From the IMG/VR virus record IMGVR_UViG_3300021185_000648, positions 1 to 28,426 of that record: 28,426 nt of DNA. The stretch is one strand, 5' to 3'. Both the position numbers and the translations under genes were made by a program. Below the pieces are notes generated by a model. That model was not told the origin of the DNA. It made no database searches and saw only the letters and a list, made by a program, of their open reading frames with translations. Each line of letters opens with the position of its first letter. Position 1 is the stretch's first letter. Origin of the DNA: a virus. This document shows, in pieces, positions 2,678 to 27,143 of this stretch.

Positions 2678-3502
2678 TTAGTGTCCGATTGCAATGAATC
2701 TGAATAGACGAGAGCTTCCATTGCCGTTAGTCAGGTAATAAGTAGACGTTGTCGGTGATGTAGAGCCTAATCCCCAGTTGTCCCCTTCACTGGCGCTGCT
2801 GACTACGCTTGTTGCAATTACCTGAAAGCATGCTGTCGGGAAAGATGTCGGGAATGAAGTCGCCTTGTTGGTTTGGTTTCCTGAAACAGTAGTGCTGCCC
2901 CACTGGACCATAAGGCCATTAGGAAGGGTAACATAACCGTTAGAAACGGCACTGGTTGTATAGTCAGAGTCTTTTACAAAATCAGACGCTGCAGCTCCCT
3001 GGAATAGGTCTGCGTCCAGTCCGGAGCCAGTCCCATCTACTGTTTTAATCTTCGTTAGGATATCAGCAGCAGTGTAGTCAGCTATAGCCAGCTTCTGATC
3101 TAAAGCACTTTGAAGATAATCGACATTACCAATTGTATGGCTATGGCTATCATCAACAACTGTCGCGGTTATGCTAACACTTGCGCTACCGTCAAAAGAC
3201 ACAGTACCAGTAACATCGCCAGTCAAACTTATGTCAACCGCAGACGCCAGGGCTGAGGCTGTAGAGGCGTTGCCAGATATAGCGCCTGTAGCACTTATAG
3301 TCGTAAAAGCACCAGTAGAGGCAGCGTTGGCGCCAATAGGAGTGCCATCAATTGAGCCGCTGTTTATATCAATGCCAGTTATCGGGACATCGCCACCCAA
3401 AAGGTCATCGACTTTTTCAGTGTTTCCATTTAAGTCGGCTCCCCATGTATTTAGGCTTGCACCTACGGTAGGGGTAGCGAATGAGTAATTAGTTGTTGCC
3501 AT
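2678..3502 (-). CDS. Tail fibre protein with gp53-like C-terminal domain
   Basis: A 274-residue fibre. Residues 1-40 (NYSFATPTVGASLNTWGADLN) resemble an N-terminal attachment segment common in phage fibres. Residues 45-180 are a low-complexity Ser/Thr/Ala repeat shaft with 'LDQKLAIADYTAADILTKIKTVDG' like other fibre shafts. Residues 189-274 match the gp53-like fibre tip ('GYVTLPNGLMVQWGS ... SFPTSFPTACFQV'), a trimeric receptor-contact domain. A longer reading starts 5 codons earlier, but the ATG at 3502 has GGAGAG 7 nt upstream and overlaps the adaptor stop (TAATG), so I chose it. It probably binds the host surface. Confidence 0.85.
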   Translation of the reverse strand: MATTNYSFATPTVGASLNTWGADLNGNTEKVDDLLGGDVPITGIDINSGSIDGTPIGANAASTGAFTTISATGAISGNASTASALASAVDISLTGDVTGTVSFDGSASVSITATVVDDSHSHTIGNVDYLQSALDQKLAIADYTAADILTKIKTVDGTGSGLDADLFQGAAASDFVKDSDYTTSAVSNGYVTLPNGLMVQWGSTTVSGNQTNKATSFPTSFPTACFQVIATSVVSSASEGDNWGLGSTSPTTSTYYLTNGNGSSRLFRFIAIGH

Positions 3503-4410
3503 TATCTGTCTCTCCAATAGTTGGCTGATCGCCCGGTGTCTAGGCCTTTAACTCGCATACCTAAGCCAGACCCTGAGTATTTCGCAGATTCCGACTCTTC
3601 ATTAAGTCTAAGAACTGCGGCACTGTATAGCTGAGCCCATACGCCAATTCGCTCATCATTAGCCAGGTAAGGGGCAGACTGTAAGAGAGACCCGTAAAGG
3701 TATACATCGGGCGCGGCGCTTAAAAGCCAGTTAGTTGGCGCACTGTCTTGCTGTGAAGTCTGCGACTGAAACGGTGTTAGCGTACTTCCGAATTGCGCAT
3801 AAAATGCTTCAGGAGTATATCTGGTAATTGCCGCGTCACCGATAACCCCAAAAAGAGATCCGTCAACAAGGTACTCACCAGTAGCGCTATCATACGAATA
3901 TACATGATGTACTGGGCCATTGGCTCCTACCAAAGCGTTAGCCAGGGACAGCGCATTAATGTTTGTGAGGTCGTAATCCTGACCAAAAAACACACTTGCC
4001 CCAAGTGAAGGGACTCTTGCTAAGTAAACGTATGTAGCAGACTCTGCTTGATCAGGGGAGGGCCAAACTTCAATGTCTTGCCCGGTGTTCTTATAGTAGC
4101 GAGGGCTTCCGGCAGTGTTTCCGCTGTTTGACCTGCGCTCATTCATTGCTGAGGTGCTTAACAACTCAAGATTGTTAGCTGATCCACCATCAAGAGTGAT
4201 ACTTACAGTTTCAACCCAATTAATAGGTCTTAATGTATACCGCCCCTCGATGCTTAACGTGGCCACGGTCTCCATTTGATAATGCCTGACATCTCGATTA
4301 ATCTGGGCTTCAGCCAGGTCAATAAATGTCGGAATCACAGATGCCAAATCTTCCCGGTTTAAAAAGTCCGCGATGCTCGATTGTAACTCTGCGTAGGTTG
4401 TTAATGCCAT
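3502..4410 (-). CDS. SU10-type head-tail adaptor with a large insertion
   Basis: The 302-residue product opens with the hallmark of the SU10 adaptor family, 'TTYAEL..SIADFLNR.DL...IP.FI.LAEA.INRD.R', and keeps 'P.NW.E', 'LARVPSLG' (~131-137) and 'TNWLLSAAPDVYLYGSLLQSAPYL' (~226-249). Adaptors form a ring between portal and tail. Family members are usually near 200-220 residues; in them the 'ARxP' strand is followed almost at once by 'xTNWLL'. Here about 86 residues (~138-223, including 'GQDYDLTNINALSLANAL') separate the two, so an extra domain seems to be inserted. RBS GGAG is 7 nt before the ATG. The gene has its own promoter-like motif just upstream. Confidence 0.88.
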   Translation of the reverse strand: MALTTYAELQSSIADFLNREDLASVIPTFIDLAEAQINRDVRHYQMETVATLSIEGRYTLRPINWVETVSITLDGGSANNLELLSTSAMNERRSNSGNTAGSPRYYKNTGQDIEVWPSPDQAESATYVYLARVPSLGASVFFGQDYDLTNINALSLANALVGANGPVHHVYSYDSATGEYLVDGSLFGVIGDAAITRYTPEAFYAQFGSTLTPFQSQTSQQDSAPTNWLLSAAPDVYLYGSLLQSAPYLANDERIGVWAQLYSAAVLRLNEESESAKYSGSGLGMRVKGLDTGRSANYWRDR

Positions 4411-4443: not shown

Positions 4444-7104
4444 TTAAATTGGACTTAACATGGACAATATACCAGCAGTAGTCATACCAGCCCTTCTAAG
4501 GCGCTCTGCCTCCTCAGCCATTCTAGGGTCAAGGTATATTTGTTCTGGCCTTAGAGGTGCTTTAGCTTCTTCTGGAGCCATCATTGCGTCCCTGTTTATA
4601 TCCTCGTACTGCTGAGAGGCGTAAGCAGGGGCTGTCACATATCCGCCCCCAGAGAATGTATCCTTCAAGTAATCTACGCCGCCTTCGCCAACGCCAGACG
4701 CGAACTGCAACAAAGACGGTAACGCGTTAGCTTTAGTAAATTCTTGAAGCTCTGGGCTTGCAGGGCTGCCTCTCCTGTCTCTACGGCTCATTCCAGCTCT
4801 ATCTGAGCGCTCTGCCATCAGCAGGCCAAACTTCTTATCGTCTGCTGCATCTGCATCTAAAGGCAAAATGCTGGCGCCTATCCCTACGCCGGCTGGACCA
4901 TGCACCCTATCTTTGAATCCTCGAAGCTTAATTGCATTAGGAGACGGCCTTCCTTCAGGGTATAAGATGTCCTCTACCTTATTGTAATTTTCCGCCCCCA
5001 TTTTTTCATGCACCTCCCTAAGCAACTTGGAGTCCCTGGCATTCCACATATGCGCACCATCCATAGATAGATATGTGGAAGGCACTAGCTTGTTGCCGCT
5101 TATCTCTTCAGCAGCATCATACATTTCACCTGCCAGACCCTGCCTGCGGTAACCTGGGTCAATCTCAGTATTTAGCGAGGACATATAACCCTCATCAAAT
5201 CCAGAGTCAATGGCGTAATCTGTTTTTAAAGAACCAATGCTTTTAGTGTCGCCGTCCTTCCGCAAAAAATATTCCCCGACTCGACTATCTTCAGGATCAA
5301 TCAAATCTACTAACTCCATACCGCGAGCTGCAAGCTTAGCAACAGACGCATCAGCATCTTCACTACCAAGCACTCCCGCGCCAAGCAATCCAGCAGTAGC
5401 TACAGGGGCAGCCTGGCGTATGACTGCGCTGCCATAGACTGGATGTTTTTTGCCTCGAACATCAATCTCACCAATCTGCTCACCTAGCTCTACAAACCCT
5501 TTCCTGGTTGGGCGAAGTCTTGGTTCAGATGCAGATTTCTCATATCTTGCCAGGTCAACTCCATCAGGGAATTGCGCATCAACCGTATAGTAATGATTTT
5601 TACCATCCTGCACCGAAACAATAGGGAAGTTGCCTGCCGGTTCTGGGTCATAACCCTCTGGAACTTGACTCCACTTCCATCCTGCTTTTTTCTTAAAAAG
5701 GTTGGTCTTAATTTTTCGCCCTTCATTTGGTGGAGTGCCAGAGCGCTGCTCACCCGCAACTTGGAACTTTGGCTTACCGTCTGGGCCAACAGATATGTTA
5801 GCAGAAGCAGGGTATTGACCAGTTATGTCAACAGGGCCATTCTCACCCATCTCTAGGTATCGACCGCCAGGCTGCTGCTCAAACTCACTTAAAAAAGGCT
5901 TAAAGTCTTTGCTGTTAGGGTCAAACATTCTTTGAGGCGCAGGAAATACATCTTTAAAGGCAGCTTTGGTGCCAGATACTACACCAGCATCAGCATCTTC
6001 ACTACCGAGCAAAGACGCGCCAGCAACGCCAGCAGTCGCAACACCAGGAAGAAGGCCGCTGTTAACCTTAAAGCCCTCTTCGCTTAGTCTTCGGAGTAGA
6101 GCCTCATCAATTAAGCCACCCCAGTAACCAACCTCCATAGCCCTTCTTGGAGCAAATCTGGTAGACAGTAAGTCTGGACCTTGAGGGCCGGTATCAAAGG
6201 TTCCATCTTTCTTCAATGCTCTGGCATACCGCTCGGGGTTTAAATCCATAGCAGTGACATCAGTATCGAGAGTTCCTAAATAATCTCCAGCTAAGCCAGA
6301 AGGATACGTTGCGTTCCCGCCACCCTCAAGGACACCACGCTGTAAGTCTACTTCACCGACATTCTGAAACCCACTAACGGGAGATAGGAGCTGAGACTGA
6401 TCAGAAACTGCTAATCTGGCCTGAGTCTGAGAGATACCGCCCTTGTTGCGATACTCTTTGTCTAACATGTTCATGGCAGTTTTTCTCTGCGTGTCAGACA
6501 GAGCGCCATACTGCTCAAGACTTTTAGGGTCGTCTACCCCAGCCCAATCAGGAACAAACTTCTTCATGTCAGCATCTAGCTGCTTTTTGTAGACTTTTGG
6601 CATGTTGCCTGCCGCCCAGGACAGCATCGTCTGGCCAGTCATGTGAGCAAAGTCACCCCCACTAGGAGCCATTCTCCAAGGCATAAAGACAGGAGAGGAG
6701 CCGTACTGGTCTTCCAGTTCCTTGGCAGCCTTTACCATGTTAGGCACAACGCCTGCGCCAGAAGCCCACAGCTCACCAGTGTCATCACGCATGTAATCTT
6801 GTCCGCCAGTTAAGCGGATAGGATGAGCAAGGGGCTTGTTACCGATGCCTTCAAGCAAACCGCCAGCAGCAGTTCTGTCAGACATTGTTGTAAAGTATGG
6901 CCTTCCCTCTAGGTCTTGTAGAGCAATGCGCTCTTGAGGGATCATGGTGCCTGTGTCGATTACATTAGCGCGATATTCAGGGGAATCTTTGACTCTCAGC
7001 TTGCCACCCGGATAGAATCTAGGGTCAAACTCAGCTCTGTCATACTTGGCATCTTTAATTGTCTCGGCAACAAAGTCCATAATGCCTTTAATTCTTCCAG
7101 CCAT
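4444..7104 (-). CDS. Large multidomain (polyvalent-type) virion protein
   Basis: An 886-residue protein next to terminase and adaptor. Residues ~137-235 ('FMPWRMAPSGGDFAHMTGQTMLSWAAGN' onward) form a helical domain I associate with phage polyvalent or internal proteins. Three Gly/Ala hydrophobic segments, each followed by an acidic 'DADA' motif, divide it: ~351-373 (GSEDADAG), ~565-587 (GSEDADAS) and ~737-756 (LDADAAD). Residues ~605-700 look like a GNAT-type acetyltransferase: 'EIDPGYRRQGLAGEMYDAAEE' carries the R-x-x-G-x-A acetyl-CoA loop. Such proteins are thought to ride in the capsid and be injected with DNA. Neither catalytic activity nor cleavage at the acidic motifs can be shown here. 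Confidence 0.65.
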   Translation of the reverse strand: MAGRIKGIMDFVAETIKDAKYDRAEFDPRFYPGGKLRVKDSPEYRANVIDTGTMIPQERIALQDLEGRPYFTTMSDRTAAGGLLEGIGNKPLAHPIRLTGGQDYMRDDTGELWASGAGVVPNMVKAAKELEDQYGSSPVFMPWRMAPSGGDFAHMTGQTMLSWAAGNMPKVYKKQLDADMKKFVPDWAGVDDPKSLEQYGALSDTQRKTAMNMLDKEYRNKGGISQTQARLAVSDQSQLLSPVSGFQNVGEVDLQRGVLEGGGNATYPSGLAGDYLGTLDTDVTAMDLNPERYARALKKDGTFDTGPQGPDLLSTRFAPRRAMEVGYWGGLIDEALLRRLSEEGFKVNSGLLPGVATAGVAGASLLGSEDADAGVVSGTKAAFKDVFPAPQRMFDPNSKDFKPFLSEFEQQPGGRYLEMGENGPVDITGQYPASANISVGPDGKPKFQVAGEQRSGTPPNEGRKIKTNLFKKKAGWKWSQVPEGYDPEPAGNFPIVSVQDGKNHYYTVDAQFPDGVDLARYEKSASEPRLRPTRKGFVELGEQIGEIDVRGKKHPVYGSAVIRQAAPVATAGLLGAGVLGSEDADASVAKLAARGMELVDLIDPEDSRVGEYFLRKDGDTKSIGSLKTDYAIDSGFDEGYMSSLNTEIDPGYRRQGLAGEMYDAAEEISGNKLVPSTYLSMDGAHMWNARDSKLLREVHEKMGAENYNKVEDILYPEGRPSPNAIKLRGFKDRVHGPAGVGIGASILPLDADAADDKKFGLLMAERSDRAGMSRRDRRGSPASPELQEFTKANALPSLLQFASGVGEGGVDYLKDTFSGGGYVTAPAYASQQYEDINRDAMMAPEEAKAPLRPEQIYLDPRMAEEAERLRRAGMTTAGILSMLSPI

Positions 7105-7150: not shown

Positions 7151-8437
7151 TCAGACAATTCCCTGAAGGTTCCTGCGGATAGGCTCGCCCCAATTAGTAG
7201 CTGGCCTGTAACCAACTGACAGGTATCTAAACGCATCGGCGCAATGACTGGTCCAGTCGTGCAATGGGCGCCCACGCCACACCATGTTCTTGTCGTCATA
7301 GTCTCGGCGGTACTGTCGCAAAGCATCAATGCCTCGCTCGCACTTACCGGTATCAAACCAGCACTTGTGAAGCATGGTCCTGGAAGCCTGGATGCCGTCA
7401 TCTACCCCAAGCTGTGGGGCAATAACAACAGGTGTTACCCTAAGAGCCTCTAATGTTTCTAGCCTAGACTTACCAGTGCCAAGCTCCCTCACCCTGACAT
7501 CATGCGGAAGGATGTGACTTTCGTAGTGGTAGCCTTTATCAGCCAAAACCTTGGCGTAATGGTCCAGACCGACACCGCTGCACTCATAGTAGTCTATAAG
7601 GCGCACCTCCTGCCCCACAAACTGCGCAAACCAAATAGAGGTACTATCGCCTACCCCAAGATCCCAAGCCGTTACAACGCCAACAGCGCGGTCGTATGGC
7701 ACTACCCCAAGCCTACCCTCCTCGTTAGCTAGGCGCATCTCTGTTGCGTAGTACGCACCATCAGCATGGATTAGCATGTCGCCTTCCCAGATGTGGTCAT
7801 ACATGTCAGGGCGCAGCTTCTTGTCCTCTAGGCGCTCACGGTTAAGGACGTCAGGGAAGTAGGGGTTGTCCTGCCAGTTGATAGTCGCGATCTTCATATC
7901 TTCTGGAGGGTTCAATCTAAACCGGCGGTGAGTAGCTGATTGCTTTGTCTCCGGGTTCCATGTCACCCAGATCTCAGAGCCATCTTCTCGGACCGTAGGA
8001 ATAAGCTTTAGCCAGGCGGACTCAGACACTCCCTCGGCCTCGTCTACCCATGCCAGGATAACCCTAGCCTTTGACTTGATTGAATCTAGATTGCGCCTTA
8101 GACCGGCAAAGACGTAATTGATACGCCCATCTTTAGACCTAACAAACTTCTCACCTATCTCGTAATAGGCGGCCAGCCAGTCAACGCTGCGAATAGCAGA
8201 TTTAATTTCTTCTAGGGATGATTCATCAAGGGAGTTGAGGTGTTCACGCGCACATAGGATCTGCCCACTCTGCCCGGACATACCCCATTTGTATCCTACG
8301 ACTGCAGTCATCAATGCAAAGGATCTAGTCTTACCTGACCCTCGACCACCATAAGCAACACGATACCTAGCCTCACCCTCGAATATAGAAACAATCTTAG
8401 GCGGTAGCCTGATCTCTGCTTTAGTGGGTTTGGCCAT
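7151..8437 (-). CDS. terL: Terminase large subunit
   Basis: A 428-residue packaging motor/nuclease of the PBSX/P22 type (Terminase_3). Walker A is GGRGSGKT (residues 30-37). Walker B is VILAWVDEAE (126-135), with catalytic Glu after D132. The coupling motif is WVTWNPE (157-163). The RuvC-like nuclease shows AWDLG (D259), PHDV (D313) and CADAFRY (D401). All expected motifs are present, so it should be functional. A TTG two codons upstream could also start translation, but the ATG at 8437 is preferred. It overlaps terS by 17 nt, the usual arrangement. Confidence 0.97.
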   Translation of the reverse strand: MAKPTKAEIRLPPKIVSIFEGEARYRVAYGGRGSGKTRSFALMTAVVGYKWGMSGQSGQILCAREHLNSLDESSLEEIKSAIRSVDWLAAYYEIGEKFVRSKDGRINYVFAGLRRNLDSIKSKARVILAWVDEAEGVSESAWLKLIPTVREDGSEIWVTWNPETKQSATHRRFRLNPPEDMKIATINWQDNPYFPDVLNRERLEDKKLRPDMYDHIWEGDMLIHADGAYYATEMRLANEEGRLGVVPYDRAVGVVTAWDLGVGDSTSIWFAQFVGQEVRLIDYYECSGVGLDHYAKVLADKGYHYESHILPHDVRVRELGTGKSRLETLEALRVTPVVIAPQLGVDDGIQASRTMLHKCWFDTGKCERGIDALRQYRRDYDDKNMVWRGRPLHDWTSHCADAFRYLSVGYRPATNWGEPIRRNLQGIV

Positions 8438-8858
8438 TATCAAACTCAGGGAAAGGCTCTGCTACTAACGTGATGATAGTAGGCTGGAATGAGTCATCAG
8501 AGGACGTTACATCCAACTGCTGCTTGTCTCCATACTTCTTAGGGGACATCCTGGCAACCTTCCACTTGCGTGAATCTATGCGCAGCTTGGCCTTGTTAAT
8601 AGCGTTACTGTCTACGTCATCACCAAGCTCATCAGCTATGTCTACGATTTCATCTGCGTAAAAGTCAGCCTGACAGTCTCTAGCTCTCGCGTACTGCTCC
8701 GAAAACTCTTTCTTGTCTGTCTCTGTAAGCCACTTCATCAGCGTAGATAGACTAGGCATCTGGTCTGACCGGCATATCTGCCTGGCGCTCTCTCCCATTG
8801 ATAGCCTGTAACAAATGCTGTCACCCAACTCAGGAGTGAATATTGATGGTCTGCTCAT
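8421..8858 (-). CDS. terS: Terminase small subunit
   Basis: A 145-residue DNA-recognition subunit. Residues 1-60 form a helix-turn-helix of the Sf6/P22-like small terminase type ('RPSIFTPELGDSICYRLSMGES..QICR..QMPSLSTLMKWL'), followed by 'YARARDCQADFYADEIVDIADE', the oligomerisation helix typical of the family. It directly precedes terL. Its ATG overlaps the TGA of the 60-residue gene upstream (ATGA). Confidence 0.9.
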   Translation of the reverse strand: MSRPSIFTPELGDSICYRLSMGESARQICRSDQMPSLSTLMKWLTETDKKEFSEQYARARDCQADFYADEIVDIADELGDDVDSNAINKAKLRIDSRKWKVARMSPKKYGDKQQLDVTSSDDSFQPTIITLVAEPFPEFDNGQTH

Positions 8859-25750: not shown

Positions 25751-26716
25751 TTATAAGCCTCTATACAATTCTTGATAGTTTACGGCCAAGTAGCCAGATG
25801 GCGTCTTTACAGTCAGAGAAGGATCAAATGCCTCTACTTCTTGAGCAATTGCACCCAAATTCATGTTGTTGCTTAGACCCTTCTCTTTGGCGTCCTCAGT
25901 CCATTCCCAGGTATATAGACCTAGACCATTAGGAAGCTCGCCAACGCGCTCTATGTTCGTTTTAAGGCGCATGTCAGACATCGCTCCAGCTGCTTGAGTT
26001 CCCATAGACAGGTAATCAAACAACCCTGGCTGTTTGGTCGTAGTTTGCGACTGGGGAATAGTAGAAGAACCTAGAGCTTGAGACACATAACCGATGGTGT
26101 CTGCTGGGGCGCCAGTGTAGCCAGCGAACTGCTGTTTAGCCGCGTCAATTAACTGCTGCTGCATTAGCTGCTCGATATTGCCCTGGTTCATAAGGTCTTG
26201 GTTGACTTCACGGCCCATGCCAAATCCTAAGTTGCCGATGTTAGCAAATTGACTGGCTGCTTGAAGACCTCTGTTAGCTTGCTGCTGCCCTGCACCTTGA
26301 TTAGCTAGGTCAGCTTGCATGCGTCCAGAAATGTCCTGCTGGGCCATGTTCTGAGCGTTCTGAAAGCCTGCCTGACGCAATCCGCCAACTGTAGACCCAA
26401 GACGATCATAAAAGTTTCTGTTTGTCTCGGCTTCGGCAATGCCATGACGAGATCCGCCAAAAGCACCAGCCTGCCCCATTTTGGCGCCACTTAGCATCTG
26501 CTGCTGCTGACGCGCTCGCTCCATATCAGAGACAGTTTGCCCAACAACTTGGCTCTCGTATGGGTTTGTGTAAGCGCTTAGATCTGTGCCGGCAAGCTGC
26601 CCTGCCTGGACCTGCATTGGCTGATACATCCCTGCGGCTGCAGTTCCTGCCATGCCGCCTTGAATGCCTTGCATAGCCATTTCGTTGATGCTTCCGCCTT
26701 GATTAGCTCCAGCCAT
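25751..26716 (-). CDS. Gln/Gly-rich virion protein with C-terminal S74 autoprocessing domain
   Basis: A 321-residue protein. Residues 1-240 are Gln/Gly/Ala-rich and helical. The C-terminal ~75 residues form a Peptidase S74 (intramolecular chaperone) domain: 'SDMRLKTNIERVGELPNGLGLYTWEW ... GAIAQEV ... GYLAVNYQEL'. In this family the chaperone cuts itself off before the Ser-Asp of S-D-x-R-L-K, using Ser and the Lys five residues on; both are present (S247, K252). The domain would trimerise the protein and then leave. I chose ATG 26716 (GGGAG upstream, adjacent to the previous TAA) over a start 5 codons earlier. Confidence 0.82.
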   Translation of the reverse strand: MAGANQGGSINEMAMQGIQGGMAGTAAAGMYQPMQVQAGQLAGTDLSAYTNPYESQVVGQTVSDMERARQQQQMLSGAKMGQAGAFGGSRHGIAEAETNRNFYDRLGSTVGGLRQAGFQNAQNMAQQDISGRMQADLANQGAGQQQANRGLQAASQFANIGNLGFGMGREVNQDLMNQGNIEQLMQQQLIDAAKQQFAGYTGAPADTIGYVSQALGSSTIPQSQTTTKQPGLFDYLSMGTQAAGAMSDMRLKTNIERVGELPNGLGLYTWEWTEDAKEKGLSNNMNLGAIAQEVEAFDPSLTVKTPSGYLAVNYQELYRGL

Positions 26717-26717
26717 C

Positions 26718-27143
26718 TTAGTATCTCCCAATTCTCATTGCGTAATCAGAAAGCCCAGGCATGCTGCTGCCCGGAACCTGCTTGCCAAACAAAGCGTCAT
26801 ATTTAGCCTGCTGTGCTGGGTCTCTTGCTGCAAGCTCTTGTTGCGCTTGCTCAAAGATAGGAAATGCAGAGTAACCCTGAACACCACCAAAATCTTGCGC
26901 CTGACCTAGAGACTGCATAGGAGCGCCGCCGCCACCTAATCCAAATGCTTCAGCCGCATCAATTTGATTCTGAAAGCCAGCCATCTGAGTTGGATTAAAA
27001 GCTGCTAAGTCTGGCCCCATATATGGTTGATAGCCAATCTGCTGAGCTGCTTCAGCCCTTGCCAGGTTTCGTATCGTAGGCTCTTTTGCCCACTCAGGTA
27101 TTTTTGCTTCGCTTGTTTGGCTTCCGCCTTTTCCACCACTCAT
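26718..27143 (-). CDS. Hypothetical virion-associated protein, 141 aa
   Basis: A 141-residue Gln/Gly/Ala-rich protein starting MSGGKGGSQTSEAKIPEWAKEP; 'IPEW..EP..RNLARAE....IGYQPY.GPD.AAFNP.Q' recurs in phage structural clusters near S74-domain proteins. No known function. It directly precedes the S74 gene (2-nt gap) and the two share composition, so they may once have been one protein or may assemble together. Confidence 0.7.
   Translation of the reverse strand: MSGGKGGSQTSEAKIPEWAKEPTIRNLARAEAAQQIGYQPYMGPDLAAFNPTQMAGFQNQIDAAEAFGLGGGGAPMQSLGQAQDFGGVQGYSAFPIFEQAQQELAARDPAQQAKYDALFGKQVPGSSMPGLSDYAMRIGRY

Follow-up and report, generated by a model that had tools for sequence, protein, structure and literature searches.

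Large multidomain phage cargo has to pass through a narrow tail, cross a membrane, and then act as separate enzymes. How it does so is a question raised here by an intact open reading frame for an 886-residue protein (counted from its ATG) on the virus contig IMGVR_UViG_3300021185_000648. The window, meaning the whole stretch of 28,426 nucleotides (28.4 kb) that was analyzed, also encodes terminase, portal, scaffold, major capsid, ejection, and tail genes. The direct neighbors of the 886-residue gene are the terminase large subunit (TerL) and a phrog_2941 virion protein, so it is encoded among packaging and virion genes. In the same contig, a phrog_4287 DNA ejection protein spans two adjacent overlapping ORFs at 25751-27143 (profile positions 5-89 and 101-386), which are either a split gene or a frameshift, and two adjoining ORFs at 71-2379 both align to one part of tail family phrog_5939, which hints at duplication of a tail domain.

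About 80 related marine loci were gathered from IMG/VR with TerL as the anchor, and the position after TerL was termed the cargo slot. A long variable ORF lies right after TerL in nearly all of these loci (about 530-1700 residues in complete cases), and a phrog_2941 homologue usually comes next where the contig extends far enough. In a few of the more distant loci, this position is taken by a short ORF or by the adaptor. The isolated phages closest by TerL (Paracoccus, Rhizobium, Sulfitobacter, and Microcystis) have the portal or small ORFs after TerL and no cargo gene, and a host search with TerL against bacterial genomes gave distant matches only. From the genomic context only, we infer that the window protein is packaged and injected. 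That it is not virion cargo and acts in the producing cell is improbable, given its fixed place between TerL and a virion gene and its kinship with module families known from head-packaged polyvalent proteins.

The protein divides into four modules separated by three joints (Table 1). The full-length AlphaFold model has M1 and M2 folded separately with the first two linker stretches disordered, and the GNAT and C-tail modules are poorly modeled. The first-pass annotation had described repeated linkers between separate domains, a reading against which one continuous fold with no GNAT core would have spoken. The models bear the reading out: M1 and M2 fold separately, a GNAT fold is present, and the linkers are module boundaries. 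The chain contains at least two unlike domains, the folded M1 and M2 plus the GNAT, and the GNAT alone has a nameable activity class. Pfam, PHROG, and NCBIfam scans of the whole protein gave no match, and PDB sequence matches to AlkZ, glutaredoxin, and SHANK were rejected as chance (E 0.5-1). M1 has no sequence match in Pfam, PHROG, or PDB, and Foldseek with the full-length model found no significant fold for M1 or M2. The top VIA matches to M1 (window 6070-6969) are all YTH with Z of 5-6.4 over many entries, below the trust level, and the model bears at best a weak resemblance to YTH/PUA-like domains.

Table 1. Features of the cargo slot. In the joint sequences, the slash stands before residue +1.
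Feature	Position in window	Strand	Remarks
Virion structural/adaptor protein (phrog_2941)	3502..4410	(-)	Downstream anchor of slot
Mosaic polyvalent-type protein, 886 aa	4444..7104	(-)	Slot between TerL and adaptor/virion gene
C-tail module, aa 754-886, type C1, ends -ILSMLSPI	4447..4845	(-)	Low-confidence model
Joint 3, aa 736-753, GPAGVGIGASILPLDADA/A (GPAGVGIGASILP-LDADA/A)	4846..4899	(-)	Weakest of three
GNAT-fold module, aa 587-735	4900..5346	(-)	Minimal GNAT; CoA loop R-R-Q-G-L-A; confident fold to about aa 725
Joint 2, aa 563-586, RQAAPVATAGLLGAGVLGSEDADA/S (RQAAPVATAGLLGAGVLG-SEDADA/S)	5347..5418	(-)	
Module M2, aa 374-562, all-beta, pLDDT about 80-90	5419..5985	(-)	Widespread in other phage proteins
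Joint 1, aa 349-373, SGLLPGVATAGVAGASLLGSEDADA/G (SGLLPGVATAGVAGASLLG-SEDADA/G)	5986..6060	(-)	Signal-peptide-like; predicted cut after A373
Module M1, N-terminal, aa 1-348	6061..7104	(-)	Folded core about aa 46-290
Terminase large subunit (TerL)	7151..8443	(-)	Upstream anchor of cargo slot

Two further observations concern individual modules. M2 looks circularly permuted near the C terminus of unrelated phage proteins of about 1500-2000 residues (L047, L053, L075, L076, and L081), where the part matching residues 461-573 comes before the part matching 370-452. A C-terminal -[SGM]P[IL] is found in 16 of 33 distinct slot proteins compared to 4 of 2813 other ORFs (LLSPI, SEFLSPI, LLGPI; window 4447-4470), and it could be a packaging tag, though many such tails are homologous. 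Many slot C-tails begin with a basic amphipathic stretch like MxxRIKGIxD.

One module had been likened to an acetyltransferase, and modeling it in isolation upheld the assignment. The GNAT module alone matches Acetyltransf_1 weakly (E 0.03), and 19 of the 21 members of its family match this profile, the best with E 5e-4. AlphaFold (AF2) modeled the isolated module with a pLDDT of 83.8. Essentially all of its top 50 Foldseek matches are GNATs, mostly with probabilities of 0.95-1.0 and with E-values of only 1e-3 to 2e-2, and VIA-align again returned GNAT domains with Z up to 8.4. The CoA loop RRQGLA fits Q/R-x-x-G-x-G/A, and among the 21 relatives the R is nearly invariant and the G invariant. 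The helices between strands 1 and 2 are missing, which makes the module a minimal GNAT. It shares the fold and the CoA loop (R-x-x-G-x-A/G) with minimal GNAT domains of the YjdJ, RibT, and Acetyltransf_CG type; the strand 1-2 helices are missing and sequence similarity is weak in this comparison, and the window GNAT differs in sitting inside a phage mosaic protein. These models confirm the segment after the second joint as a GNAT-fold domain, and acetyl transfer is its predicted activity.

The joints were then defined by their anatomy. Three Gly/Ala segments had been seen to precede acidic motifs, and this reading holds with two SEDADA motifs and a weaker LDADA. A six-frame scan of the window found no [DE][AS][DE]A motif with a hydrophobic Gly/Ala lead beyond these three, and no other window ORF of at least 80 residues has Gly/Ala hydrophobic segments ending in DADA. 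Hydrophobic uncharged stretches of the slot proteins were picked by composition alone, using no motif, and the 54 non-redundant segments were compared to 71 control stretches, likewise hydrophobic, in the non-slot ORFs of these contigs. The tripeptide [AVST][DEQ]A falls within 7 residues after the segment in 40 of the 54 slot segments and in 2 of the 71 controls, which is beyond chance (Fisher p = 2e-18), although many joints share ancestry and neither the p-value nor the counts describe independent events. In 2000 shuffles of the tails, at most 21 of the 54 segments carried the tripeptide. These counts use [AVST][DEQ]A because the first [DEQ]A is a poor anchor: in EDADA-type tails it puts the site in the wrong place. 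The longer string G-x-E-D-A-D-A-G was rejected as a stand-alone signature: its 119 IMG/VR matches are nearly all chance, with real joints only in L107, L158, and L198. The L107 protein belongs to the same family as the window protein. In L198 and L158, whose TerL is 45-50% identical, the slot holds ART-like and GNAT modules with one GSEDADA joint and a conserved tail of the SNPVAT..GLLANVTGQPSN type.

Numbered from the predicted cut, all 40 sites have S, P, G, or T at -6, and -5 and -4 are mostly acidic or Gln. The -3 position is A20 S12 V7 T1, -2 is D22 E13 Q5, and -1 is Ala; the -1 Ala and the small -3 residue are partly imposed by the search. The +1 position is S16 G13 A8, with the others E or Q and no Pro, and neither this preference nor that at -6 was imposed. 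All four Ala codons are in use at -1, which points to a constraint on the protein and not on the DNA. Net charge is higher before the segment than after it in 36 of the 40 joints, and the 15 preceding residues are net positive in 25. The h-region is 14-21 residues long. It is only modestly hydrophobic: the best 19-residue Kyte-Doolittle mean is 1.19 and no segment reaches 1.6, which makes membrane insertion uncertain. For a signal peptide, acidic residues at -5, -4, and -2 would be unusual. Among related joints, the C-terminal ones are degenerate (ETAEP). The window joints are internal, and the N-terminal position of a signal peptide is seen only in relatives, L331 and L337 among them. In sequence, the joints have the (-3,-1) pattern known from signal peptidase I substrates, apart from the acidic c-region, the modest hydrophobicity, and the internal position. 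The linkers of the first-pass annotation are now defined as segments with signal-peptide anatomy and an A/V/S/T-x-A site, in a protein that we group with the polyvalent family.

Comparison of the slot proteins showed where modules are exchanged. Module seeds mapped onto these proteins reveal a small module set recombined in different orders and combinations. The usual slot order is M1 (six variants), then M2, GNAT, Zn-peptidase, ART or others, and then the C-tail; outside the TerL set the order is permuted, as in L337 where the GNAT comes first and M1 later. Among the sister modules, Pfam scored LPD23 above its cut-off with a Peptidase_M78-like Zn-peptidase domain (LPD23 in L005), and ART-PolyVal (L242/L013), Methyltransf_23, and GNATs below cut-off. 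The GNAT start SVAKLA and its variants (S-V/L/I-A-K-L) stand exactly at +1 behind at least a dozen unlike upstream segments. Among these segments are two short N-terminal leaders, in L331 (MSVFASVARNISDSRSKRNIGIAAVGAGTVLAPQESEA) and in L337 (MSSRIKGIIDAVLRSGIVGAGVAQSEDADA), that read like ordinary signal peptides. Conversely, the single upstream segment AALIAAVGLPATMAT leads to M2, Zn-peptidase, ART, or GNAT modules. At the DNA level, L015 has an unalignable M1, then 96% identity over 71 bp to window joint 1, then the window's GNAT, and it later turns to L012 DNA (98.8% over 880 bp) inside a hybrid joint. By its alignments, L015 combines window-like with L012-like DNA, and its breakpoints lie inside joints. 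Window joints 1 and 2 share the identical 20-mer GGTAGTGAAGATGCTGATGC and about 83% identity over 58 nt. These comparisons show the joints as module boundaries and swap points between phages.

The shared joint DNA and the breakpoints within joints would fit an ordinary polyvalent protein. In such a protein the joints would be Gly/Ala linkers that stay uncut, either flexible or touching the membrane, and they would resemble each other from use as recombination patches for module shuffling. The disorder that AlphaFold assigns to the linkers agrees with this explanation, and it is a serious possibility, short of even chances. What it leaves unaccounted for is that very unlike upstream segments keep the -6/-3/-1/+1 pattern and that four Ala codons serve at -1, so DNA homology alone is insufficient to explain the motif. 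The joints could also act as membrane anchors that, like ejection proteins, hold the modules on the host inner membrane after ejection with no proteolysis. A hydrophobic stretch of 14-21 residues, flanked by basic residues on its N side and acidic ones on its C side, would suit an anchor, but the hydrophobicity is below the usual threshold for stable helices and the exact A-x-A is left unexplained. Moreover, nearly all joints have one polarity, and an uncleaved chain could not span the membrane at each of them in turn. Anchoring is unlikely on these grounds. Equal polarity fits repeated cutting and misfits a stable multi-spanning chain.

The reading that we put at even chances is a chain of exchangeable, separately folded modules that is probably packaged and injected, with host signal peptidase I as the favored means of cutting the joints. 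A podovirus-like marine phage would make the M1-M2-GNAT-C-tail chain together with its virion genes, and this polyvalent cargo would probably enter the next host with the DNA. Each joint is a weak signal-peptide-like segment of basic residues, about 14-21 Gly/Ala-rich hydrophobic residues, a helix breaker, and an acidic c-region ending in [A/V/S/T]-x-A, and modules are exchanged between phages inside these segments. The chain would cross the inner membrane N terminus first, and each joint would lodge there, its basic N side cytoplasmic. The active site of signal peptidase I faces the periplasm, and the AxA site would meet the host enzyme on that face. The upstream module, still bearing a short membrane tail, would then be freed within the cell. 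Cleavage by signal peptidase I, taken on its own, is less likely than not. Against it stand the acidic -5/-4/-2 residues, the modest hydrophobicity, the weak joint 3, and the related named isolates that lack the motif. If the leader of L331 or L337 is a real N-terminal signal peptide, the GNAT would be exported away from acetyl-CoA in the producing cell, which also counts against the proposal. The fullest version, an injected-effector polyprotein split by host signal peptidase I at repeated internal signals with joints that serve as standardized effector-swapping connectors between phages, is rather doubtful.

The cutting enzyme might instead belong to the phage. The Zn-peptidase modules of sister proteins, or a maturation protease, could cut the joints before or after packaging, in the manner of the autoproteolysis proposed for P1 DdrB by Iyer et al. 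(PMC5512222). The window protein and several relatives have joints with no peptidase module, and no prohead protease was recognized among the scanned window genes, making a phage protease quite improbable.

We place the protein in a known class, the polyvalent proteins (Iyer et al. 2017, PMC5512222), and the new element is the recurrent signal-peptide-like joint. Like polyvalent proteins, the slot proteins string numerous unlike enzyme domains into a single chain, and their genes lie among packaging and virion genes. The sister proteins contain ART-PolyVal, LPD23, Zn-peptidase, and GNAT modules. The named polyvalent families occur only in these sister proteins, LPD23 above its cut-off and ART-PolyVal below; the window protein has the GNAT alone, which was not matched to the two GNAT families of PMC5512222. 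The main text of that paper makes no mention of linkers, signal peptides, or transmembrane segments. P1 DdrB and the N4 virion RNA polymerase are large multidomain head-packaged proteins (PMC5512222), and the window protein resembles them in size and multidomain build, with its own packaging inferred; no such repeated joints are described for them there, and DdrB processing is ascribed to its own peptidase domain.

In flavivirus polyproteins, host signal peptidase cuts at internal signal sequences. If the proposal is right, the likeness is one of mechanism only: several internal signals of one polarity and products separated by host signal peptidase. The differences are an unrelated virus, a bacterial membrane, an incoming instead of a newly made protein, and cleavage that is predicted here. 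Among the papers searched, no phage polyprotein cut by a signal peptidase came up, though this does not prove that none exists.

The joint grammar extends beyond the TerL-anchored loci. A second phage group, whose portal differs (L349), has it too, as do L018-L020, L301, L302, and most of L352-L370. In contrast to the window protein, the giant ART-bearing polyvalent proteins L303-L328 lack the joint motif, with L304 giving a single incidental regex match. The motif is likewise missing from named phages that carry related modules, and a tblastn search of named phages with a 30-residue joint gave no match. Given its absence from the ART giants and the named phages, the joint grammar is a feature of one group of phages, uncultured and apparently marine, and not of polyvalent proteins at large.

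With a joint that is conserved, exchangeable, and built like a signal peptidase site, the question of how such cargo is separated becomes a residue-level prediction. In uncultured phages, the joint signature also offers a way to locate the borders of modules and to discover effector families. If the proposal is true, a phage would deliver several proteins as a single chain and the host would cut them apart.
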